The notes beneath the pieces are model-generated. The model was not told where the DNA came from, did not search any database, and worked only from the letters and a program-made list of their open reading frames with translations. The translations under genes and the position numbers were made by a program. A DNA stretch of 64,000 nucleotides from NCBI RefSeq assembly GCF_015694465.1, contig NZ_JADQDO010000002.1:744001-808000 (forward strand), in the 5' to 3' direction. This DNA is from Microvirga alba (GTDB taxonomy: Bacteria > Pseudomonadota > Alphaproteobacteria > Rhizobiales > Beijerinckiaceae). Shown one piece after another: positions 5,308 to 55,246 of the stretch (positions within the stretch are counted from its first letter, which is position 1; each line of letters begins with the position of its first letter).

Positions 5308-6819
5308 TCAATCCGCGACAGCCGCTTCGGCGGCCTTGATCGCGCTGCCGCGCAATGGCCGCTCCTCCATCGCGAGCAGGAAGAGGAAGGAGAGGCCGAA
5401 ACCGGCCACCGCCGCCAGGAACACATAGGTGAAGATGTCGGCGAGGTTGACACCGCTTTTCGCGACGGAGGCGGACAGCGTCTCAAAACTCGCGGCGCCA
5501 TCGAGATTGGCGCCGCTCAGCACGATGGCGCCGAAGATCGCGACGATCAACGCACCGCCGAGCGAGCGGAAGAAATTCGCGGTGCCGGTCGCGGTGCCGA
5601 GCTGATGCGGCGCGACCGCGTTCTGGATCGCGACCGTCGAAACCGGCAAGAGCGTCCCGAGCCCCATGCTGATGATGGCGAGCACGACCTCGATACCGGA
5701 AATCGGAAGCCGCGAGCTGAATGCCGTGAGAACTCCGGTCGCCGCCATGGCGACGAGCAGTCCGGCGAGAGGCAGGCGCTTGTAGTGCTTCACCTTGGCC
5801 ATGGTGCGCCCGGACAGGGTCGCGCCCATGACGGTGCCGGCCATGAGCGGGATGAGCGCCAGGCCCGATTCACTCGCGGTAAGACCGCGAACCGCCTCGA
5901 AATAGACCGGCAGATAAATGGTGAGGCCGATATAGGTGCCCATGCCGAAACAAGCGGCGAGCGTGCCCATGCGCACCACGGGATTGTGCAAGACGCCCGG
6001 CGGGATCAGCGGCTCAGGCGCGGCCTTCATGCGCGCCCAGAACAGCACCCAGAGCAACCCCGAGCCGGCGAAAAGGCTTACGATCGGCAGCGACCCCCAC
6101 GGAAAGCGCAAGCCGCCCCAGCTCAAGGCCAGAAGCAGCGAGACGGTGGCGGCGACCAGGAGCAGCGCGCCCAACAGGTCGAGCTTGTGCGGCCGGTCGA
6201 AGCGCGGCAGTTTTTTCAACCCATGGAAGGCGATGATGAAGGCGATCAAGCCGAGCGGGAGGTTGATCCAGAAAATCACCGACCAGTGCAGGTGCTCCGC
6301 GAAGAAACCGCCGAGAACCGGGCCAAGAAGGCTTGCGGTCATGAACACGCTGGCAAAATAGACCTGATATTTCGCTCGTTCCTTCGGCGGGACGAGGTCG
6401 GCAACGATGGTTTGACCGAGCGCGATCAGGCCGCCGCCGCCCAGGCCCTGCACGCCACGCGCGAGGATCAGCACGAGCATGTTCGGCGCGACCGCGCAGG
6501 CGACGGAACCGACGATGAAGATGACGATGCCGATCAGCATGGTGATGCGTCGGCCGTGACTGTCGCTGAACTTGCCGTAGAGCGGGGTCACGGCGGTCGC
6601 GGTCAGGAGATAAACCGTCACGACCCATGGCAGATGTTCCAGATCGCCAAGCTCGCGGCCGATGGTCGGCAACGCCGTCGCGATGATGGTCTGATCGAGC
6701 GCCGCGAGCAGCAGCGCCAGCATGACGCCGAAGATGATCTTGCGGATTTCCCCTTGGCTCAGGGCGAGCCTCGGTTGTTGCTCCAGGGTCTTGGTCGTTG
6801 ACTGATCCATCGTGTCCAT
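5308..6819 (-). CDS. MFS transporter, DHA2 (EmrB/QacA) family, 14 TM
   Basis: A multidrug:H+ antiporter of about 503 residues. Family signatures include LDQTIIATALPTI in the first helix and PLYGKFSDSHGRR at the first cytoplasmic loop. Hydrophobic segments are consistent with 14 transmembrane helices. The frame extends upstream to a TTG at 6849. I prefer the ATG at 6819, with a second ATG at 6810, because the extra residues look unconserved and cover a dyad that resembles an operator. It is convergent with the ABC efflux operon, so the two pumps are not cotranscribed. The substrate cannot be read from the sequence. Confidence 0.88.
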   Translation of the reverse strand: MDTMDQSTTKTLEQQPRLALSQGEIRKIIFGVMLALLLAALDQTIIATALPTIGRELGDLEHLPWVVTVYLLTATAVTPLYGKFSDSHGRRITMLIGIVIFIVGSVACAVAPNMLVLILARGVQGLGGGGLIALGQTIVADLVPPKERAKYQVYFASVFMTASLLGPVLGGFFAEHLHWSVIFWINLPLGLIAFIIAFHGLKKLPRFDRPHKLDLLGALLLVAATVSLLLALSWGGLRFPWGSLPIVSLFAGSGLLWVLFWARMKAAPEPLIPPGVLHNPVVRMGTLAACFGMGTYIGLTIYLPVYFEAVRGLTASESGLALIPLMAGTVMGATLSGRTMAKVKHYKRLPLAGLLVAMAATGVLTAFSSRLPISGIEVVLAIISMGLGTLLPVSTVAIQNAVAPHQLGTATGTANFFRSLGGALIVAIFGAIVLSGANLDGAASFETLSASVAKSGVNLADIFTYVFLAAVAGFGLSFLFLLAMEERPLRGSAIKAAEAAVAD

Positions 6820-6843
6820 CGCGTTACGGGCAGATGGTTTACG

Positions 6844-6863
6844 GGACAACCGTTATCTTGTCC
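6844..6863. promoter_or_regulatory. Dyad GGACAA-N8-TTGTCC upstream of the MFS gene
   Basis: A perfect 6-bp inverted repeat with an 8-bp spacer lies about 25 bp upstream of the preferred start of the MFS pump. Its size suits a dimeric repressor of the TetR or MarR type. No regulator gene is adjacent to this pump, so the protein that binds it is unknown. Confidence 0.35.
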
Positions 6864-6995
6864 TAAACCCCGCTGCAGGGCAGCCATGCGTTCGGGTCGA
6901 AAACCGACACTTGGACTGTAAATCCGAAAGCAGGTTTCGGGAAGAAGGCTTGCCGAACGCCCAAGCATCGCGCTAGCTGTGGCGAGGTTCTTGGA

Positions 6996-8198
6996 ATGTT
7001 CCGCATGGCTCAGCGCACCCGTCTGTCTCTCTCCCAGGCCCGCCGCATCGCTCTCGCCGCGCAAGGTTTCGGCGAAACGCGGCCGACCCGGCCGACCGTC
7101 CGGCATCTCACGCGCGCGCTCGACCGCTCGCATCTGCTGCAGATCGATTCGGTCAATGTGCTGGTGCGTGCCCACTACATGCCGCTTTTCTCGCGCCTGG
7201 GAGCCTATGAGCGCGAGCTTCTGGAAAAGGTCGCCTATCACCCGAAAAAGCGCGCCACGTTCGAATATTGGGGGCACGAGGCGTCGCTGATTCGTCTCGA
7301 CCTCCATCCCCTGTTCCGCTGGCGCATGGCGCGCGCGGCGCGCGGCGAGGGGACCTATGGCGGCATCGCCCGGTTCGGGCAGGAGAAACGCGCCTTCATT
7401 GAGGAAGTCCGCCGCGAGATCGCCGCGCGGGGCCCGCTCAGTGCGGGCGAATTGACGGGTGGCGGCAAGGGGAAGGGCTCGTGGTGGGGCTGGAGCGACG
7501 GCAAGCGGGCGCTCGAATGGCTGTTCTGGGCCGGCGAGGTCACGACCGCCACCAGACGCGGGTTCGAGCGGCTCTACGATTTGCCGGAGCGGGTGCTGCC
7601 CGCCGCCATCCTCAACGCCCCGACGCCGTCGGAGGAGGAGGCGCAGCGTGAGCTTCTCAAGCTCTCCATCCGGGCTCTCGGCATCGCCAGCGAACGCTGT
7701 CTGCGAGACTATTTCCGCCTCAGTCCGGGGGATGCCAAGGCGCGCATTCCCGAACTGATCGAGGCGGGAGACCTTCTCCCGGTTACTGTCGAGGACTGGA
7801 GCGGTCCGGTCTATCTCGACCCCCAGGCGCGCATTCCCAGGCGCATCGCTGCCCGCGCGCTGGTTTCGCCTTTCGATCCCATCGTGTGGGAGCGCACGCG
7901 CACGGAGCGCTTGTTCGATTTTCACTACCGGATCGAAATCTATACCCCAGCCGAAAAGCGCGAATTCGGCTATTACTGCCTGCCCTTCCTACTCGGCGAG
8001 GACATCGTCGCCCGCCTCGACCTGAAGGCGGATCGCGCGGCGGGACGCCTGATCGTCCACTCGATCCATCCCGAGCATCACGCCGCGCCTGACGAGATCG
8101 CGCCTGCTCTTGGCGACGAACTGCGCCTGATGGCGGGTTGGCTCGGCCTTCGCGACATGGCCGCGCCGAAGGCGTGGAAGGGGCGGCTCGGGGTTTAG
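6996..8198 (+). CDS. Winged-helix DNA glycosylase-like protein (YcaQ/DUF1006)
   Basis: A 400-residue member of the HTH_42/YcaQ superfamily. E. coli YcaQ and Streptomyces AlkZ are DNA glycosylases that unhook crosslinked or alkylated bases, and their catalytic motif is Q-hydrophobic-Q or Q-hydrophobic-D. Here the motif is QID at residues 49-51 (LLQIDSVNV). Other family landmarks are FEYWGHEASL, the region LVSPFDPIVWERTRTERLF and a C-terminal wing near YGYYCLPFLLGE-like residues. Length is normal. An ATG at 7005 is a possible alternative start. It stands alone. Repair of alkylated or crosslinked DNA is the likely role, by family. Confidence 0.8.
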   Translation: MFRMAQRTRLSLSQARRIALAAQGFGETRPTRPTVRHLTRALDRSHLLQIDSVNVLVRAHYMPLFSRLGAYERELLEKVAYHPKKRATFEYWGHEASLIRLDLHPLFRWRMARAARGEGTYGGIARFGQEKRAFIEEVRREIAARGPLSAGELTGGGKGKGSWWGWSDGKRALEWLFWAGEVTTATRRGFERLYDLPERVLPAAILNAPTPSEEEAQRELLKLSIRALGIASERCLRDYFRLSPGDAKARIPELIEAGDLLPVTVEDWSGPVYLDPQARIPRRIAARALVSPFDPIVWERTRTERLFDFHYRIEIYTPAEKREFGYYCLPFLLGEDIVARLDLKADRAAGRLIVHSIHPEHHAAPDEIAPALGDELRLMAGWLGLRDMAAPKAWKGRLGV

Positions 8199-8230
8199 AA
8201 ACGAAGGTTTTGAGCGTAGCGCTTATCCCT

Positions 8231-8325
8231 TCCCCCTTGCGGGGAGGGTTAGGGTGGGGGGCGGCGCTACCTGGTTCGATGATGGCGCTCACACCCCCAC
8301 CTCCAACTCCTCCCCACAAGGGGGA
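8231..8325. repeat. Dispersed intergenic inverted-repeat element, copy 1
   Basis: Two 17-bp arms (8231-8247 and 8309-8325) are complementary with one mismatch, and inner segments (GTTAGGGTGGGGG against CCCCCACCTCCAAC) extend the pairing, so the DNA could form a long cruciform or its RNA a long hairpin. A second copy with the same arms and a similar core (GGCGCTCA) is at 58361-58464. Both sit in short spacers, this one between the YcaQ-like and PAP2 genes. Confidence 0.75.
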
Positions 8326-8421
8326 GGAGAGTTGCACTATTCGACGGCCGAGACCGAACAAGGAGAGCGGACACGACACACGCCTCTCGCCAGCGCACCA
8401 CAAGGACCCTATTCTTCTCCG

Positions 8422-9168
8422 ATGACCTCCGTTCTTGCTCCCGCCACCCGGCTTTGGCTGCGCCTTCGCCTCAATGAAATCAGTGCTCTGATCTCGCTTG
8501 CCGGGTTCGGGCTGTTCGCCTGGGCTTTCCTGGGCCTCGCAGGCGAGGTGCGCGAAGGGGAGACGCATGGGTTCGACACCGCGCTGCTGCTGGCTCTGCG
8601 CAACCCGCAAAACCCGGCCGACCCGCTCGGGCCGTCGTGGTTGGAGGAAGCCGCGCGCGATATCACGGGATTGGGCGGCTATGCGGTCCTGACCATCGTC
8701 ACGCTGGCGTCGATCGTCTATCTGCTGATGGCGAAGAAACGAGGGGCAGCGCTTCTGGTGATCGTCGCGGTTCTCGGCGGCACATTGCTGTCCACAATTC
8801 TCAAACTCGGTTTCGATCGGCCGCGCCCCGATCTCGTGCCACATGCGGCGCGCGTCTATACGGCGAGTTTTCCGAGCGGCCATGCGATGCTGTCCGCCGT
8901 CACCTTCCTGACGCTGGGCGCGCTGCTGACCCGGGTGGAGGAGAGCCGCCGCATCAAGGTCTTCATCATGGGACTCGCGGTCGCCATGACCTTGCTCGTC
9001 GGTATCAGCCGCGTCTATCTCGGCGTCCATTGGCCGAGCGACGTGCTCGCAGGATGGTCCGTTGGTGCCGCCTGGGCGTGTCTGTGCTGGTTTGTGGCAC
9101 TGCAATTGCAGCGCAGCGGACGGGTGGAGAACGGAGCGGACTCTCTACCCCAACAACCGCCCGCATGA
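8422..9168 (+). CDS. PAP2-family phosphatase
   Basis: The start chosen is the ATG at 8422. A longer frame upstream only translates the intergenic repeat. The 248-residue product has the three PAP2 phosphatase motifs: KLGFDRPRP, SFPSGHAM and SRVYLGVHWPSDVLAGW, with the catalytic histidines in the second and third. About five to six membrane segments place it in the inner membrane, where such enzymes dephosphorylate phosphatidic acid, undecaprenyl pyrophosphate or related lipids. The substrate is not decidable. Its stop overlaps the recX start by four bases, so the two are translationally coupled. Confidence 0.87.
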   Translation: MTSVLAPATRLWLRLRLNEISALISLAGFGLFAWAFLGLAGEVREGETHGFDTALLLALRNPQNPADPLGPSWLEEAARDITGLGGYAVLTIVTLASIVYLLMAKKRGAALLVIVAVLGGTLLSTILKLGFDRPRPDLVPHAARVYTASFPSGHAMLSAVTFLTLGALLTRVEESRRIKVFIMGLAVAMTLLVGISRVYLGVHWPSDVLAGWSVGAAWACLCWFVALQLQRSGRVENGADSLPQQPPA

Positions 9169-49071: not shown

Positions 49072-49148
49072 GCACCCGTAGCTCAGCTGGATAGAGCGTT
49101 GCCCTCCGAAGGCAAAGGTCACACGTTCGAATCGTGTCGGGTGCGCCA
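49072..49148 (+). tRNA. tRNA-Arg (anticodon CCG), CCA encoded
   Basis: A complete 77-nt cloverleaf. The acceptor stem GCACCCG pairs with CGGGTGC, the D-arm is GCTC with AGCTGGATA, the anticodon stem TTGCC pairs with GGCAA around loop CTCCGAA (anticodon CCG), and the T-arm is ACACG-TTCGAAT-CGTGT. Discriminator G and CCA are encoded. CCG reads Arg codon CGG, common in high-GC genomes. The 3' 48 nt are duplicated at 55199-55246, so this gene is the attachment site of the adjacent integrated element and is left intact. Confidence 0.97.
49101..49148 (+). repeat. attL, 48-bp direct repeat inside tRNA-Arg
   Basis: GCCCTCCGAAGG at its left end to GTGCGCCA at its right end is identical, base for base, to 55199-55246. 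It spans from the anticodon arm to CCA. Identity breaks just outside both edges, which marks the crossover-region duplication left by integration. Confidence 0.93.
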
Positions 49149-49219
49149 GTCTTAAGCTTTTGAAATGCTTGGGATTGGCTTCGAGAGCCGCCCCCGAGAA
49201 GTCGCTGAAAACACCCTCC

Positions 49220-49238
49220 TGTCACAGCAAATGTCACA
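49220..49238. promoter_or_regulatory. Paired TGTCACA repeats, probable integrase arm sites (left)
   Basis: Two TGTCACA heptamers begin at 49220 and 49232, 12 bp apart, just before the integrase start. The same pair with the same 12-bp spacing lies at the other end of the element (54986 and 54998). Direct repeats spaced by about one helical turn at both ends are the signature of arm-type sites for a lambda-family integrase N-terminal domain. They also overlap the integrase promoter region, so binding could autoregulate. Confidence 0.65.
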
Positions 49239-49258
49239 GTTGAGGTGGAACGCGCACT

Positions 49259-50248
49259 ATGGCGACGATCCGTAAGCGGGGGGCCTCTTGGCAGGTCCAA
49301 GTGAGACGCGAGGGTCACCCTCCCATTTCCAAGAGCTTTGCTCGCCAAAGCGAGGCAGCGGCTTGGGCTAGGAGCATTGAAACCCAGATTGATCGCGCCG
49401 AGCGAGCGCCATCCAATCGCGACCTCGACAAGACAACGGTGGCAGACCTCCTGACGCGTTATGAGAGCGAAGTTACACCCACGAAACGAGGCGAACGGGC
49501 CGAACGTTCGCGCCTGAAGGTCCTCCAACGCCATCCCATCTCAGAGCTGTGCGTTGGGGAGCTCTCGGGAGCCGCCGCCGCAAAGTACCGGGATGACCGC
49601 CTGAAGCTCGTTAAGCCCGCGTCCGTTCGTCGTGAGTTGGTCATTTTGCGGCATATGTTTGAGGTGGCTAAAGCTGAGTGGAACATGCCCTTAAGGAGCA
49701 ACCCGGTTCACGCTATCAAACTTCCTAAGGATTCTAAGCCCAGAGACCGACGCCTTGCCCCCGACGAGGAGGGTAAACTCATAGAGGCGATTGGGGAGAG
49801 GTCCGCTTGGTATCTGCGACCGTTCATTTTGCTGGCGGTTGAGACCGGAATGAGGCGCGGAGAGCTTCTGTCAGTCCGGTGGCGCGATGTAGATGTGGAG
49901 CGGCGAACGGTAAAGTTAGCCCACACAAAGAACGGCGATCCGCGCACAGTTCCGTTGAGCCCGCGAGCGTTGGAAGTTCTGTCATCACTAGTGCGAACCG
50001 AAGAACGCGTATTCCCAATTAAAGCCAATGCCCTCAGATTGGCGTGGGGGCGGTTGAGGAAGAGGGTCGGAATGGAGGACCTCAGACTCCACGATCTGAG
50101 ACATGAGGCTGTGTCACGTTTCTTTGAGCATGGTCTCTCGACACCAGAGGTCGCACTCATATCCGGTCATCGAGACCCCCGGATGCTCTTTCGATATGCC
50201 CACCCGCGCCCTGAGGATATCGCTCAGAAGCTCAACCGGGCCGGTTAG
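49259..50248 (+). CDS. int: Tyrosine-recombinase integrase
   Basis: A 329-residue site-specific recombinase. Residues 1-55 form an arm-binding-type beta domain (SWQVQVRREGHPPISKSFA), 60-150 the core-binding SAM-like domain and 170-320 the catalytic domain. Active-site residues are visible: Arg in GMRRGELL (200), Lys224, HxxR in LHDLRHE (278 and 281), His304 in SGHRD and the nucleophile Tyr313 in MLFRYAHP. It lies 110 bp from the tRNA-Arg attachment site and reads away from it. No excisionase gene was recognised. The pentad and Tyr are intact, so the enzyme may be active. Confidence 0.93.
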   Translation: MATIRKRGASWQVQVRREGHPPISKSFARQSEAAAWARSIETQIDRAERAPSNRDLDKTTVADLLTRYESEVTPTKRGERAERSRLKVLQRHPISELCVGELSGAAAAKYRDDRLKLVKPASVRRELVILRHMFEVAKAEWNMPLRSNPVHAIKLPKDSKPRDRRLAPDEEGKLIEAIGERSAWYLRPFILLAVETGMRRGELLSVRWRDVDVERRTVKLAHTKNGDPRTVPLSPRALEVLSSLVRTEERVFPIKANALRLAWGRLRKRVGMEDLRLHDLRHEAVSRFFEHGLSTPEVALISGHRDPRMLFRYAHPRPEDIAQKLNRAG

Positions 50249-50622
50249 CTCAAAGCCTGATGGGGCTGGAAGTCACTCGGCTCTCGTCGGTCCAACAACA
50301 CCGACAAGACCTTTAGCTCTGATTTTGAAGATACCCATGCCACCCATCGCGTGGGGGGCCGAGTTTACAGTGGCGGGGCTCACACTCGGACTGAAGGACC
50401 TCCTTACGAGGACCCGGTTAGAAGCTGGTGTTGGTTAACGAGCGTCACTGCTGCATCACGTCCAACAACCAACAAACCCTTTAGCTGTTTTTTGGAAGCA
50501 TAGGGCGGCAGCGTAACTGCGCAATCTCAGACCCGCTTGCCTTACCCAGAACTGCCTTCCGCGCCACTTGCACTTGCAAAGCCGATTACCTACCTTGGCT
50601 GTGGGTTGAACTTGGGGCTGAT
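50249..50622. other. Gene-poor stretch with two copies of a ~28-bp repeat
   Basis: No gene is recognised in these 374 bp. Two similar direct repeats stand out: GTCCAACAAC...CCTTTAGCT at 50290-50317 and at 50460-50486. They differ by a one-base indel and a few substitutions and lie about 170 bp apart. They could be binding sites for a recombinase or repressor, or the remains of a duplicated end. An open frame overlapping the first half is a shadow. Confidence 0.45.
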
Positions 50623-51231
50623 ATGAGTGACGAAGTCTATACCGATGCTTCAGACGATGCATTCGTCAAGCAGAAATACTCCCTGACTCTGAAGGGTGGC
50701 GGCCTAACTTTGGAGCGCCAAGTCGATGAAAACACTGCTCTTGCAATCCTCCAGATCAGTATGGGCGGGGCTGCACCTGTTCCAGGTCTATCCGTAACGC
50801 CGAAGCCTACGCCACCTGTAGCCCATGCCCCATCCCTTCAGCCTGTGGAAGTTCAAGGAGAGCAGCGTCTCTCCCTTCGCAACTACTTCGACCAAGTTGG
50901 TGCGAAGAATAACCTCGCAAAGATAGTCGCTGTTGGCGCGTACTTAAGAGAGGTTGATGGTCAGACCGAGTTCTCAAGAGAGGATATTGCGGCTGGCTTT
51001 CGGAACGCACGAGAAATCGTTCCGGGGAACCTCCCTCGCGATGTAGGCAAGGCCGTCCAAGCCGGGTGGATTGCCGAGGACCCCCGAAGCAAGAATCAGT
51101 TCTACGTCACGGCTGTCGGAGACGATGCTCTCAGCTCAGGCTTCGAGGGCACGCGGGCCTCCAGTAGCCGCAAGAAACGGGGTAAGAAGGCAAAAGGGGG
51201 CGGTCAACAATCCGCCAGTGAGGGCGAATGA
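50623..51231 (+). CDS. Winged-helix protein with basic tail, module gene A
   Basis: I do not recognise this 202-residue protein by name. Residues 18-48 form a beta-hairpin plus helix (YSLTLKGGGLTLERQVDENTA), and 86-170 look like a winged helix (LSLRNYFDQVGAKNNLAKIV, EFSREDIAAGFRNAREI, a wing ending in NQFYVTAVGDDAL). A Pro-rich linker (50-75) separates them. The tail (SSRKKRGKKAKGGG) is strongly basic and suits nucleic-acid binding. Its stop overlaps the next gene by four bases (ATGA). It lies in the integrated element. A DNA-binding or regulatory partner for the PLD-like protein is the inference. Confidence 0.62.
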   Translation: MSDEVYTDASDDAFVKQKYSLTLKGGGLTLERQVDENTALAILQISMGGAAPVPGLSVTPKPTPPVAHAPSLQPVEVQGEQRLSLRNYFDQVGAKNNLAKIVAVGAYLREVDGQTEFSREDIAAGFRNAREIVPGNLPRDVGKAVQAGWIAEDPRSKNQFYVTAVGDDALSSGFEGTRASSSRKKRGKKAKGGGQQSASEGE

Positions 51232-51980
51232 GTTCAAGCCCGCATGTTGAGGTATTCCGCGGGCTCGACACTTCGGAGTTGCCTGACGTTCACACACTTG
51301 CAACCGATCGCCTTCAAGTCCTCTGGATACTCGTTGCCGCGAAATGGGGCGGCGCTGCTATAAGCCTGACGGCGGGGGAAATCTCCGATGTTCTGCAGAA
51401 CGTTTGCGGAATCGCGGTTTCACGGCAACGCGTTAGCGCAATTCTCTCGACCGAGAGGCAGTCTACTTCTCGCGCAGGACGTAAAGCACCTGCCCGGTTT
51501 CAGGTCATGAAAAAAGGAGAGGACGAACTTCTTGGCAGTGGGCTCAGCCCCCTGTTCATCGACCCCACACAGGCTTTGAGCAGCATTCGCAAATTGGAGG
51601 ACGTTCTATCTCAACTGAGTGGCGAGGTCCGAGTTTGCGACACCTACATCAACAATCATACCATCGACTATTTGGCCCTTTGCACGAAATCCACATCGAT
51701 CAAACTGCTCACGGAAAACATCCAAGAGAGCAATAAGCTGAAGCGCGACTTGGCTGCGTTCACAAAGGAACACTCGACCCCGTTAGAGATTCGCCAAGCC
51801 TCACCAGGACAACTGCACGACCGATATTTTATCCATCAACACGGTCTTCTTTTGGTCGGTGCCAGCTTGAAGGATATCTCGAAGAAGCAAAGCATGGTTG
51901 TGTCGCTGTCGCAGAATTTCGCCCGTGAAATGGCGCGGGCGTTCGATGGAATCTGGAGTCGCGCCAACCGTTTCCCATAG
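51228..51980 (+). CDS. Winged-helix plus PLD-like protein, module gene B
   Basis: A 250-residue protein. Residues 25-100 form a winged helix (LQVLWILVAAKWGG, EISDVLQNVCGIAVSRQRVSA, then a wing with ARFQVMKKGEDEL). Residues 130-240 resemble a single PLD-superfamily phosphodiesterase repeat: VRVCDTYINNHTIDYL, SIKLLTENIQ, LHDRYFI with His197, and GASLKDISKK. The HKD motif is HDR here, that is, no Lys two residues after His, as in a recurrent family of bacterial proteins I have seen with this HDR pattern, whose activity is not known to me. It starts inside the stop of gene A, so the two are coupled. Function unknown. Confidence 0.6.
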   Translation: MSSSPHVEVFRGLDTSELPDVHTLATDRLQVLWILVAAKWGGAAISLTAGEISDVLQNVCGIAVSRQRVSAILSTERQSTSRAGRKAPARFQVMKKGEDELLGSGLSPLFIDPTQALSSIRKLEDVLSQLSGEVRVCDTYINNHTIDYLALCTKSTSIKLLTENIQESNKLKRDLAAFTKEHSTPLEIRQASPGQLHDRYFIHQHGLLLVGASLKDISKKQSMVVSLSQNFAREMARAFDGIWSRANRFP

Positions 51981-52033
51981 TCGGCCTCGCCATTAGACCT
52001 TGGCCATGTGGCATGAGCCTCCGTGGATGATTT

Positions 52034-52106
52034 TGTCTGCCACAGAAGTCACCCTTGATTTTTGGCAGACACTATGCCGTTATGTTTAAGATCCTAATGG
52101 CGGACA
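52034..52106. promoter_or_regulatory. res-like site array upstream of serine recombinase
   Basis: TGTCTGCCA (52034-52042) and TGGCAGACA (52063-52071) form a perfect 9-bp inverted pair with a 20-bp spacer. A third related copy, TGGCGGACA, follows at 52098-52106, just before the recombinase start at 52110. Resolvase sites are built from such inverted TGTC-ended half-sites. Binding here could serve recombination and autorepression. Confidence 0.6.
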
Positions 52107-52109
52107 AAC

Positions 52110-52661
52110 ATGACAATGCTGGTGGGCTACGGACGAACAAGCACCCTCGACCAAGTGGCGGGTTTAGAAGCCCAAGAACGTGACCTGAAGGCTCTTGGGT
52201 GCGATAAACTCTTCCTTGAACAAACCTCCTCGGTGGGTCCAAGGGAGTCACTGGAGGCAGCCCTTGAGTATGTCCGGGAGGGAGACACCCTTTTTGTCAC
52301 CAAACTGGATCGCCTTGCGCGTTCGGTGGTTCATCTGGGGCACATCATTGCCGCCCTGGAAGCCAAGAAGGTGAGCCTCCGCATCCTTGATCTCGGCATC
52401 GACACCAACACCCCAACCGGAAAACTCATGCTGAACGTCCTGGGCAGTGTCGCACAGTTTGAACGGGAGATGATGCTGGAGCGGCAACGGGAAGGGATCG
52501 CCAAGGCCAAGGCTGAAAGGAAGTACAAGGGGAGAGCCCCCACCGCGCGGGCGAAGGCGGATCAGATTAGGGCTTTGGCCTCCCAAGGGGTGCCGAAAAG
52601 AGAGATCGCGAAACAGCTTGGCGTTGGCGAGCGGTCGGTGTTCCGCATTCTTTCGGACTGA
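52110..52661 (+). CDS. Serine recombinase, resolvase/invertase family
   Basis: A 183-residue Tn3/Hin-type recombinase. The active-site Ser11 is in YGRTSTLDQ, followed by LEAQ and the core FVTKLDRLARSVVHL with catalytic arginines. GKLMLNVLGSVAQFEREMMLERQREGI is the conserved helix E region. The C-terminal helix-turn-helix (VPKREIAKQLGVGERSVFRIL) binds DNA half-sites. It is full length. Three related half-sites precede it. No second resolvase target or transposase is seen in this window. It may resolve multimers of the excised element or invert a segment. Confidence 0.93.
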   Translation: MTMLVGYGRTSTLDQVAGLEAQERDLKALGCDKLFLEQTSSVGPRESLEAALEYVREGDTLFVTKLDRLARSVVHLGHIIAALEAKKVSLRILDLGIDTNTPTGKLMLNVLGSVAQFEREMMLERQREGIAKAKAERKYKGRAPTARAKADQIRALASQGVPKREIAKQLGVGERSVFRILSD

Positions 52662-53178
52662 CCATCCCGAGACCATAGGTAGATATCATTGATTAGCATT
52701 CAATCAAAGGTTGGGTCTATGCCGTCTTATGAGACGCCCAATTTTTTCTCCACATAACCCTTTGATATTGCACAACAACACAATCAAAATATGCCCAGAT
52801 CCTACGCTTTTGGACAAAGGCGCGTTCGGGCTTAGGGGCCTGTGATCCTTCTAGGAAAAACGCGGGCTAGGAGACACAGGGGCCTTCGACACGACCAAGC
52901 TTGCCTCAGCTTCGTCAGGGTGGCCACCGATGGTGTGGTCCAGTCTTGACCACCTTGGACTTGGACCTAGTGCTCTAAGAACCTTGCTCAGTAAGGGTTT
53001 CAGGCACCGAGTCTTAGAAGGGGAAGGTAGAATAATCAGGGTGTCCACCCCGTTGTTTTTCACCTTCAGCTTCATCAACACAGCCAGCACCTAAGCCTTA
53101 ATCAGATTGGTCACCACAATGATCAGTCAGGAAGCGCATTGTCCTCAGTGAACGCTATAAATCCTAACAGAAGACAAT
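52662..53178. other. AT-richer 517-bp stretch, possible replication or control region
   Basis: No convincing gene. A hairpin TTGATT-N7-AATCAA lies at 52689-52707, and ATCAAAGG (52703-52710) is repeated inverted as CCTTTGAT (52759-52766), with more ATCAA-type motifs near 52792. This AT-rich, repeat-bearing stretch precedes the P-loop ATPase gene and could be an origin or operator. A minus-strand frame, 52851-53090 (79 codons), has no RBS and no recognisable content. I would not call it a gene. Confidence 0.45.
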
Positions 53179-54462
53179 ATGATTACAATAATCGACTCGA
53201 TCATGGGGTCTGGGAAAACGACCTTTATGATCAACTATATGAACGATACCTATAAGAACTACTTGGGAAAGTGTATCGATGACCTGGGACGCCTAGCTCC
53301 AAGGTTTCTTTATGTGGCCCCGGTTCTCTCTGAGGTGGACCGCATCAGTCAGGCGTGCCCCCAGTTGAACTTTCGTGTCCCCCAACCCGTCAAAGGGAGG
53401 AAACTGAACCACCTTGCCTCCTTAGTGAACCAGGGGGCCAACATCTGCACGACCCACGCTCTGTTCGCGTTGCTCACGAGAGACATCTACGAGAGCCTCA
53501 AGGACCAAAATTACATCCTTGTGATCGATGAGGCGTTGGACAGTGTGCATATGTTTGAGGGGCTATCGGCCTCCGACAGAAACCTCCTGCTCAAGGATGG
53601 CCATTTGTACGTCGAACCTGAGACCAATAGGCTTCGTTGGAACAACAGGGACCATGGTCGCTACGCAGGGAAGTTCGATGCAATCAAGAACCTCTGTGAC
53701 AACGGTAATCTGATCAACTTCGATGGCGTGTTGATCTGGGAGTTCCCTGCGGATTTCCTTCAGTGCTTCAAGCAAGTGTTCGTCCTCACCTACATGTTTG
53801 AGGGCTCTCCCATGGCCGCCCACCTGAAGGGAGCGGGGCTGCGCTATGATCTCAATACCTTGGAGGATGGGGACCTTGTGTCATGGTGGGACCACTGTGA
53901 CGAGGCCGAGGTGAAGGCGAAGCTTAGGAACCTGATTTCTGTCTATGAGGGATCGGCCAACAACTGGGGCGCTTCACGAGGACGATCCAACCCTTTCTCC
54001 GTTGGTTGGCTTAAGCGTAGCGAAGGCGATCTCAGAGCAATCAGAGCGGTTCTTGAAAACTGGTTCAAGAAAGGAGCCGAGACACCGACAAGTGCTAACG
54101 CGTGGACCACCTTCAAATCAGCGAAGAGGCGCTTGTCGGGGGCACGGTATGCAAGGGGCTTCATCCCCTGCAATGCTAAGGGCACCAATGATTACATCGA
54201 GAAGCGGTCCTTGGCCTATCTGTGTAACATCTTCTACAATCCCATGATCAAACGGTATTTTCATGATCGCGGGATCGAGGTTCAGGAAGAGCTTCACGCC
54301 CTCTCCGAGATGATCCAGTGGATTTGGCGCAGTCAGATCCGAAGAGGCGACCCGATTACCATCTTGATACCGTCCGAACGGATGCGAAGTCTGTTCAAGA
54401 GGTGGTTAGCCGCCTCCCATGTGGCCGAGCTCATCGACCAAGATAGCAGATTGGCCGCTTAA
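53179..54462 (+). CDS. Phage-type P-loop ATPase, DEAD/H-like helicase N-half
   Basis: A 427-residue protein with a strong Walker A at the extreme N-terminus (DSIMGSGKTTF, residues 6-16) and a DEAL-type Walker B (ILVIDEAL, 113-120). TTHALFALL (about 91-99) resembles helicase motif Ia/Ib positions. It matches a class of phage and integrative-element proteins that start MxxIIDSxMGSGKT and are annotated as helicases. The second RecA domain is not obvious, and the last 250 residues have no clear motifs. Probable role: replication of the element. The gene has lower GC than host genes. RBS is weak. Confidence 0.72.
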   Translation: MITIIDSIMGSGKTTFMINYMNDTYKNYLGKCIDDLGRLAPRFLYVAPVLSEVDRISQACPQLNFRVPQPVKGRKLNHLASLVNQGANICTTHALFALLTRDIYESLKDQNYILVIDEALDSVHMFEGLSASDRNLLLKDGHLYVEPETNRLRWNNRDHGRYAGKFDAIKNLCDNGNLINFDGVLIWEFPADFLQCFKQVFVLTYMFEGSPMAAHLKGAGLRYDLNTLEDGDLVSWWDHCDEAEVKAKLRNLISVYEGSANNWGASRGRSNPFSVGWLKRSEGDLRAIRAVLENWFKKGAETPTSANAWTTFKSAKRRLSGARYARGFIPCNAKGTNDYIEKRSLAYLCNIFYNPMIKRYFHDRGIEVQEELHALSEMIQWIWRSQIRRGDPITILIPSERMRSLFKRWLAASHVAELIDQDSRLAA

Positions 54463-54491
54463 ACGTCCCGCGTCCTCCAAACACCTTCCTG

Positions 54492-54524
54492 AGCCGGTGA
54501 CCCTTGTCGGTCCCGGCTTTTTTT
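54492..54524 (+). terminator. Intrinsic terminator after the P-loop ATPase gene
   Basis: AGCCGG (54492-54497) pairs with CCGGCT (54513-54518), with a further inner GACC/GGTC stem, followed by seven T residues (54518-54524). It lies 30 bp past the ATPase stop on the same strand. It is a good Rho-independent terminator. Confidence 0.85.
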
Positions 54525-54554
54525 CATGTCCACAATCCAAATTTGAGAAAAAGA

Positions 54555-54884
54555 ATGAACATCACCGTCCGTCCAGTAGGCCGCGGGGGGCGCTACGCTG
54601 CGCTCCTCGGAACCCGTGAGCTTTGTGTAAGCCACACGCCCTTCTTCACCGCCGCTCGCGTCCTCCAAAGAGAAGGCTTTCCCGATGACGAGCCGATCAA
54701 CATGAGTCACGAAGGCTCCTCCATCATTTCCATGAGGAGTACCATCAGAGAGGCCGCCAGTTTGACAGTGAGGGAAAACGACCACGACGACATCTGCATC
54801 GCCCCTTACACTGAGGGGCCACCTAGGATGCCATTTCCCTCCGTAGGGGTTCACCAAGGACAGGCATTTGTCGCTCTCGGGTAG
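54555..54884 (+). CDS. Small conserved-type hypothetical of the element
   Basis: A protein of 109 residues from the ATG at 54555 (a TTG at 54504 would add 17 unconserved residues inside the terminator). It reads NITVRPVGRGGRYAALLGTRELC, then PFFTAARVLQREGFP and a stretch MSHEGSSIISMRSTIREAASLTV. This pattern recurs in small Rhizobiales proteins of unknown function that I have seen in other genomes. No catalytic motif. It is the last gene before attR. Confidence 0.55.
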   Translation: MNITVRPVGRGGRYAALLGTRELCVSHTPFFTAARVLQREGFPDDEPINMSHEGSSIISMRSTIREAASLTVRENDHDDICIAPYTEGPPRMPFPSVGVHQGQAFVALG

Positions 54885-54985
54885 GTAAGTGGCCCAACAC
54901 CAAACCGCCTGTCCTTGAAGTTCAATCGCCACAACGATGAGCCTTCGCAGGGCCGAAGAACAGCGGATGACTAGCGTGCGTGGCC

Positions 54986-55004
54986 TGTCACATTCCTTGT
55001 CACA
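54986..55004. promoter_or_regulatory. Paired TGTCACA repeats, probable integrase arm sites (right)
   Basis: TGTCACA begins at 54986 and again at 54998, the same 12-bp phasing as the pair next to the integrase at 49220. The flanking G after the second copy is also shared. Their symmetrical placement near both att copies supports integrase arm binding. Confidence 0.65.
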
Positions 55005-55043
55005 GTGACGAGCAATAACGCCCATCGAACGTCACGGCGATAT

Positions 55044-55135
55044 CCTAAGACCCCCTTGAAACTCCCGCGATACCTCAATAGCATCGCAATCGTGACAAAT
55101 GGGTTTTCCCGTTGGTTTCAAAGGGGTTTCTTAGG
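55044..55135. repeat. Imperfect inverted repeat near attR
   Basis: CCTAAGACCCCCTTGAAAC (55044-55062) is the near-complement of GTTTCAAAGGGG...CTTAGG (55115-55135), with single-base bulges. The stem is 19-21 bp with a 52-bp interior. It lies 64 bp from attR. It may be a binding site for a recombination cofactor, or the end of an older insertion. Nothing else is recognisable between the small gene and attR. Confidence 0.6.
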
Positions 55136-55198
55136 TCTCCTATCGCCCGCGCTAGGTAGGTCCTACGCTCAGCCAGCCGACCATCGAATTGTGTTGCC

Positions 55199-55246
55199 GC
55201 CCTCCGAAGGCAAAGGTCACACGTTCGAATCGTGTCGGGTGCGCCA
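55199..55246 (+). repeat. attR, 48-bp direct repeat of the tRNA-Arg 3' end
   Basis: Identical to 49101-49148. It holds only part of the anticodon arm, the T-arm and CCA, so it cannot encode a tRNA. Host sequence resumes after 55246. Excision by recombination between the two copies would restore the original tRNA locus. Confidence 0.93.

Follow-up and report, generated by a model that had tools for sequence, protein, structure and literature searches.

The question raised by this locus is what two overlapping genes, here called A and B, do on a small integrative element that lies in the window, the 64,000-nucleotide stretch of Microvirga alba DNA analysed here. Our preferred reading, to which we give a probability of about 0.4, is that they form one horizontally spread sensor/output module, which is bound to DNA and serves in mobile-element conflict. 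What the data support is a mobile module in which a common adapter is combined with different partners.

The integrative element at tRNA-Arg is real. The 3' part of tRNA-Arg(ccg) (49072-49148) provides a 48-bp sequence (49101-49148) that recurs as a direct repeat at 55199-55246, and the two copies bound an element of 6.1 kb (approximately 49101-55246). Its genes are, in order, a tyrosine integrase (49259-50248, + strand, 329 aa; Pfam Phage_integrase, 3e-28; phrog_1), A, B, a serine recombinase (52110-52661, + strand, 183 aa; Pfam Resolvase, 4e-37) and a P-loop protein of phage type (53179-54462, + strand, 427 aa; phrog_2467, a relative of SPbeta YonV). The earlier note had described A and B as the only clear cargo of the element, a fair description to which the P-loop gene may be an exception. 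In the best 12 of 55 phage records, this P-loop protein is 33-37% identical over 96% to SPbeta-type phage proteins (yonV of SPBc2). The 374-bp gap between the integrase and gene A (50249-50622) holds an imperfect direct repeat of about 40 bp (50290-50330 and 50460-50498), which none of 100 dinucleotide shuffles equalled, and which is possibly an operator or an accessory site. A 9-bp inverted repeat (52034-52071; arms TGTCTGCCA and TGGCAGACA, 20-nt spacer) is found just upstream of the serine recombinase, the shuffle test having been applied to the direct repeat only.

Gene A occupies 50623-51231 (202 aa) and gene B 51228-51980 (250 aa), both on the + strand with an ATGA overlap, exactly as had been read from the sequence. 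Both genes are conserved: identity to A is 26-38% among the nine other rows of the A family alignment (A6), and an archaeal protein (L075, genome G1112) is related to B over its full length, with 26% identity over 254 positions (E=7e-30). The AlphaFold2 model of A (10 rows, mean pLDDT 76.8) exhibits a hairpin at about 18-35 (strands 18-25 and 28-35) followed by a helix (36-46), a disordered linker (pLDDT below 50 at 53-79) and a winged helix at about 85-172, for which the 10-residue mean pLDDT is 87 at 81-90 and 95-97 at 91-170. The C-terminal tail is basic, with eight K/R within the last 30 residues. The model of B (11 rows, mean pLDDT 83.9) comprises a winged helix at about 27-92 and a C-terminal alpha/beta domain of PLD type at about 109-245, in which HDR (197-199; 51816-51824) stands in the place of HKD. 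The architectures that the earlier note had proposed for both proteins are thus reproduced by the models.

With regard to fold similarity, the Foldseek comparisons bear directly on plain regulation, which is the main rival explanation. In this case, A and B would be ordinary regulators of the element, with B acting as a repressor of TrmB type whose PLD-fold domain binds a ligand and A as a MarR-like co-regulator, both controlling integrase and recombinase expression. We find this doubtful, but have kept it as the main rival because B has a TrmB-like build. TrmBL2 ranked first for B against the PDB (E=2.8e-7 over 290 alignment columns), followed by Nuc (E=4.9e-6, rmsd 3.4), TrmB, NucT, human BJ-TSA-9 and others, and we take the C-terminal domain of TrmB to have a PLD fold as well. 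The TrmBL2 match nevertheless has a TM-score of only 0.39 and an rmsd of 18. For A, nothing was found in the PDB at E<=0.001; the best, non-significant, matches are MarR-type wHTH proteins, the first being MarR at E=0.049. The direct repeat in the gap before A is also consistent with regulation. On the other hand, the relatives adjoin unrelated genes, with no integrase nearby in the loci examined, and A changes its partner between loci.

A second alternative, which we regard as improbable, is that B works as a divergent but active nuclease of PLD type, directed by its own winged helix and aided by A in finding target DNA. HKD enzymes carry the motif HxKx4D, of which the histidine is the nucleophile. 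In all 14 PLD-like proteins compared, His-Asp-Arg was found, so that the histidine is kept and the lysine is replaced by arginine throughout. The position of the HKD aspartate is occupied in B by glutamine by direct count and by histidine by alignment. An aspartate seven residues after the histidine is absent in all three B-type proteins (Q in the window, S in L073, G in L068) and in one of 11 other PLD-like proteins (L072), a difference with a Fisher p of 0.011 that has to be read with the possibility that the three share one ancestor and did not lose the residue in three independent events. Of the features of PLD superfamily nucleases, B therefore has the PLD fold, whereas HDR followed by Gln departs from HxKx4D. 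Given that the lysine and the aspartate of HKD are missing in all three B-type proteins, we infer that these have lost hydrolysis. Without these residues a nuclease is less probable, even though the nucleophile is retained and Nuc, NucT, Zucchini and BfiI are all among the significant fold matches of B. The earlier term nuclease-like is weakly supported, because B retains only one of the three HKD residues and its best fold match belongs to the TrmB regulator family. No clear unrelated enzyme fold, which the earlier note would have counted against its reading, was found for B in the PDB, and comparison with viral models gave general PLD-fold matches only (8 at E<=0.001).

Gene A yielded no usable family match in Pfam, PADLOC, NCBIfam or PHROGs, in line with the earlier view that the pairing cannot be assigned to a known system; a match to NCBIfam Omp38 (E=0.0012) was far below the cut-off and was set aside. 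No description of the A-B pair was found in the literature searched, which included parts of PMC12988326, PMC10936438, PMC3710099, PMC11037411, PMC12839542 and PMC4877046, most subscription papers and bioRxiv preprints being outside its scope. Relatives of A are present in Proteobacteria, Patescibacteria, Kiritimatiellae and archaea, and all counts of relatives given here rest on sampled genomes. The class-level search gave matches in 6/385 genomes and the A profile, at phylum level, in 7/398, the window's own being included in both. A scan of GTDB contigs gave nine loci, four of them already in the class-level set, with titles naming Alphaproteobacteria, Rhodospirillales, Nitrosomonadales, Thermoplasmata, Kiritimatiellae and Patescibacteria. 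In the phylum of a Thermoplasmata MAG (G1096), 19 of 145 genomes matched, 16 of them weakly and without the partners sought; in the class of a Nitrosomonadales MAG (G1095), the only match among 185 genomes was the centre genome itself. No match was found in plasmids by tblastn with A, B, the A protein of L013, the A and B proteins of L050 and the B protein of L073, and four scans of viral contigs found no relatives. Loci with E of 1e-9 or better were regarded as clear A loci (n=17 after removing duplicates), a somewhat arbitrary cut that falls between L028 (1e-9) and L064 (5e-9). The 18 weak matches (L024, L025 and L052-L067), which had no partner profile match, were not accepted as clear loci. 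In five archaeal loci (L054, L056, L058, L062 and L066), a weak solitary A-like gene adjoins an apparent pentapeptide-repeat protein in conserved order.

The loci collected were searched with profiles for A, WH2 (a second winged-helix protein), the B-type winged helix, the HEPN-like protein and the PLD-like domain. Since many matching rows were themselves part of the profiles, a leave-one-out test was performed in which each locus and its close kin were removed from the training set. The A profile recovered 10/10 rows (E 3e-32 or better) and the HEPN-like profile 5/5 (E=5e-32 or better), while a PLD profile built without L068 and L073 recovered both (5e-18 and 2e-16, respectively). Recovery was uneven for WH2 (L075 1e-9, L017 3e-7, L013 7e-7, L014 9e-4, L036 0.014, L076 0.08). 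The B-type winged helix profile recovered the window (2e-5), L073 (8e-5) and, marginally, L039 (0.006), and did not recover L028 and L029 (E 25-27).

By this test, a partner is adjacent or fused to A at 8/17 clear loci, one of the eight being marginal. The partner is a PLD-like B in the window and in L050, a HEPN-like protein in L013, L014, L036, L017 and L051, and a marginal B-type winged helix fused to A in L039; BLASTP of B found nothing in this fused domain (E=41), and L039 matched L073 at 4e-5. Three loci of one genus (L027-L029) have a second gene beside A whose kinship to the partner types is unsupported. The reading of these second genes as B-type winged helices was rejected, as L028 and L029 scored E of about 25 with a profile trained without L027-L029, L027 not having been separately tested; the partner count thereby fell from 11 to 8 of 17, which makes our preferred reading and its broader form slightly less probable. 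Five clear loci are without any partner type sought, namely L015 and L016 (one genus), L031, L033 and L026, and L037 terminates at a contig end. In L033 (2383-7539, Thermoplasmata MAG), genes for DarT and a macrodomain protein lie upstream of A, with a second A-like gene as well as a further small gene on its downstream side, and in L026 (5148-7405) the A-like gene is followed by genes for a ParA-type ATPase and a RelA/SpoT-domain protein.

The HEPN-like protein exhibits an invariant R-x3-H, the HEPN motif being Rx4-6H, and no Pfam match reached the cut-off; for this RxxxH partner, the HEPN label is not proven. Two of 95 class genomes matched its profile, both with A adjacent, and the association with A (Fisher p=0.0013 with four A-bearing genomes) was obtained with a profile trained on those same two loci. 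Among plasmids, the protein of L051 matched one record (L084), whose 6.6-kb stretch showed no A or WH2 match. In L013, the A-WH2-HEPN-like set (5722-8628) lies 3' of tRNA-Arg(cct). Beyond the set come first a 35-bp copy of the 3' end of this tRNA in inverted orientation, then a direct partial copy and an exact 111-bp repeat of what follows the tRNA gene. This arrangement suggests that the set has likewise inserted at a tRNA gene, with no recognised integrase in the ORFs examined. No such repeats above chance were found in L014, L036 or the other loci tested, save for a repeat of 15 bp in L014, where the null gave 14.

Matches of B were found in 6/397 genomes of the window's order, its own included, the others matching in the C-terminal part only or being rejected. 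The rejected matches in L005 and L006 were put down to chance, given internal stop codons and a short aligned region; only L005 was checked by reading. Two profiles of PDC-S05, a defence candidate in PADLOC, matched the C-terminal part of B only (7.1e-14 and 3.5e-11). In the window's class, PDC-S05 matched 5/240 genomes, including the window's own, the others with the N-terminal part only and once with the C-terminal part only; for L040-L042, the match is confined to the N-terminal part of the model. The PADLOC profile search also gave a match to NsnC (3e-5), and a literature search on this name returned no defence paper among the matches listed. A resemblance of B to the NCBIfam VPA1262 domain (E=0.004) was far below the cut-off and was set aside. 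Nothing was found for B in phages, and the PLD domain of L018 matched two plasmid records.

The archaeal genome G1112 carries two arrangements that resemble the window. On contig C31 (L050, L076), a WH2-like gene is followed by A (hhalign probability 97, E=4e-11 against the A profile) and then by a 268-aa relative of B, which is 30% identical over 128 aa of the PLD part (E=2e-13). The N-terminal part of this protein looks winged-helix-like, although it gave no match to the B winged-helix profile. On contig C25 (L075), WH2 is followed by a 109-aa gene, without a match to the A profile, and by the full-length B relative described above, which an Eco57I-type restriction-modification gene adjoins on the other strand. 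The B profile matched 5/145 genomes, and only G1112 has this arrangement; the other loci examined in those 145 encode PLD proteins fused to ORF6N, RhuM or otherwise. One plasmid (L085) has a PLD relative near AIPR and type I restriction genes, with no A. The coupling of A and B exceeds what chance would give. The co-occurrence that the earlier note had anticipated was borne out in the archaeon, where relatives of A and B are adjacent, but among the 17 clear A loci only the window and one more show it.

In our preferred reading of a conflict module, A would be a small adapter made of a hairpin and a winged helix, and B a TrmB-type build in which a winged helix is joined to a PLD-fold domain without the hydrolytic HKD set. 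The two would bind each other and, via their winged helices, DNA. The far domain of the partner may serve as an interchangeable sensing or output part, PLD-like here and RxxxH (HEPN-like) at other loci, and the module would guard the element or its host against competing phages or plasmids. The att repeats, the archaeal pair of A with a PLD-like B, the full-length B relative of the same genome, the HEPN-like partner at five A loci, the AlphaFold2 models, the TrmB family as first fold match of B, the PLD-like domain common to B and PDC-S05 and the second set at tRNA-Arg in L013 all argue for such a module. Against it stand the tested partner at only 8 of the 17 clear A loci, the five loci without the types sought, the second genes of L027-L029, which the leave-one-out test did not support as B-type winged helices, the archaeal B of L050, which the B winged-helix profile does not match, the low TM-score and high rmsd of the TrmB match, and the occurrence of a PLD relative (L085) and a HEPN-like relative (L084) without A. 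A role in conflict between genomes is suggested by the restriction-modification gene beside B in L075, by the presence of AIPR and type I restriction genes in L085 and by the link to PDC-S05, and from these neighbours we infer a possible defence role for A and B. That A and B are instead a toxin-antitoxin pair stabilising the element is very improbable, as the small size and overlap of the two genes on a mobile element, the DarT/macrodomain pair near A in L033 and the ParA-type and RelA/SpoT-domain genes after the A-like gene of L026 are set against A without any sought partner in L015, L016 and L031 and against the lack of an intact HKD set in B.

The conflict-module reading can be extended to a broader proposal, namely that A represents an undescribed family of winged-helix adapters in bacteria and archaea that assembles on DNA with one or two further winged-helix proteins and serves interchangeable outputs, either the HDR PLD-like domain or the RxxxH (HEPN-like) domain. 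In this general form the proposal is rather unlikely. If true, it would represent a novel general design, either for mobile-element immunity or for control of the element, in which one adapter with exchangeable partners forms a small module common to bacteria and archaea. It would also mean that a PLD fold has been turned into a sensor or scaffold, and show how the HKD fold spreads after the loss of catalytic residues.

Among known proteins, the HDR motif is common to the B family and to the C-terminal PLD-like domain (MIT_C) of MITD1, a domain linked to ESCRT. The sequence of B leans weakly to MITD1: the B family profile matched human MITD1 at E=0.011, MIT_C matched 2/11 B-family members (best E 0.0043) and PLDc_2 matched 5/11 (best E 1.8e-4), neither of them matching B of the window itself. 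MITD1 is eukaryotic and, unlike B, has no winged helix; this weak link could bear on the origin of the eukaryotic domain. The archaeal regulators TrmB and TrmBL2 have, as does B, an N-terminal wHTH before a C-terminal domain, as described for the TrmB family in the available part of PMC4877046. B differs from them in having no Pfam TrmB match, a low TM-score and no sign of sugar binding. PLD-wH modification-dependent endonucleases also combine a winged helix and a PLD domain in one protein; in the available part of PMC11037411, they are named in the domain order opposite to that of B, have conserved catalytic residues and are described with no mention of an A-type partner. Finally, PDC-S05, which comprises RhuM/ORF6N proteins, some with a PLD-like C-terminus, has the C-terminal HDR PLD-like domain in common with B. 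Its members L069 and L070 carry ORF6N or RhuM N-termini, in place of which B has a winged helix, and B also has A as its partner.
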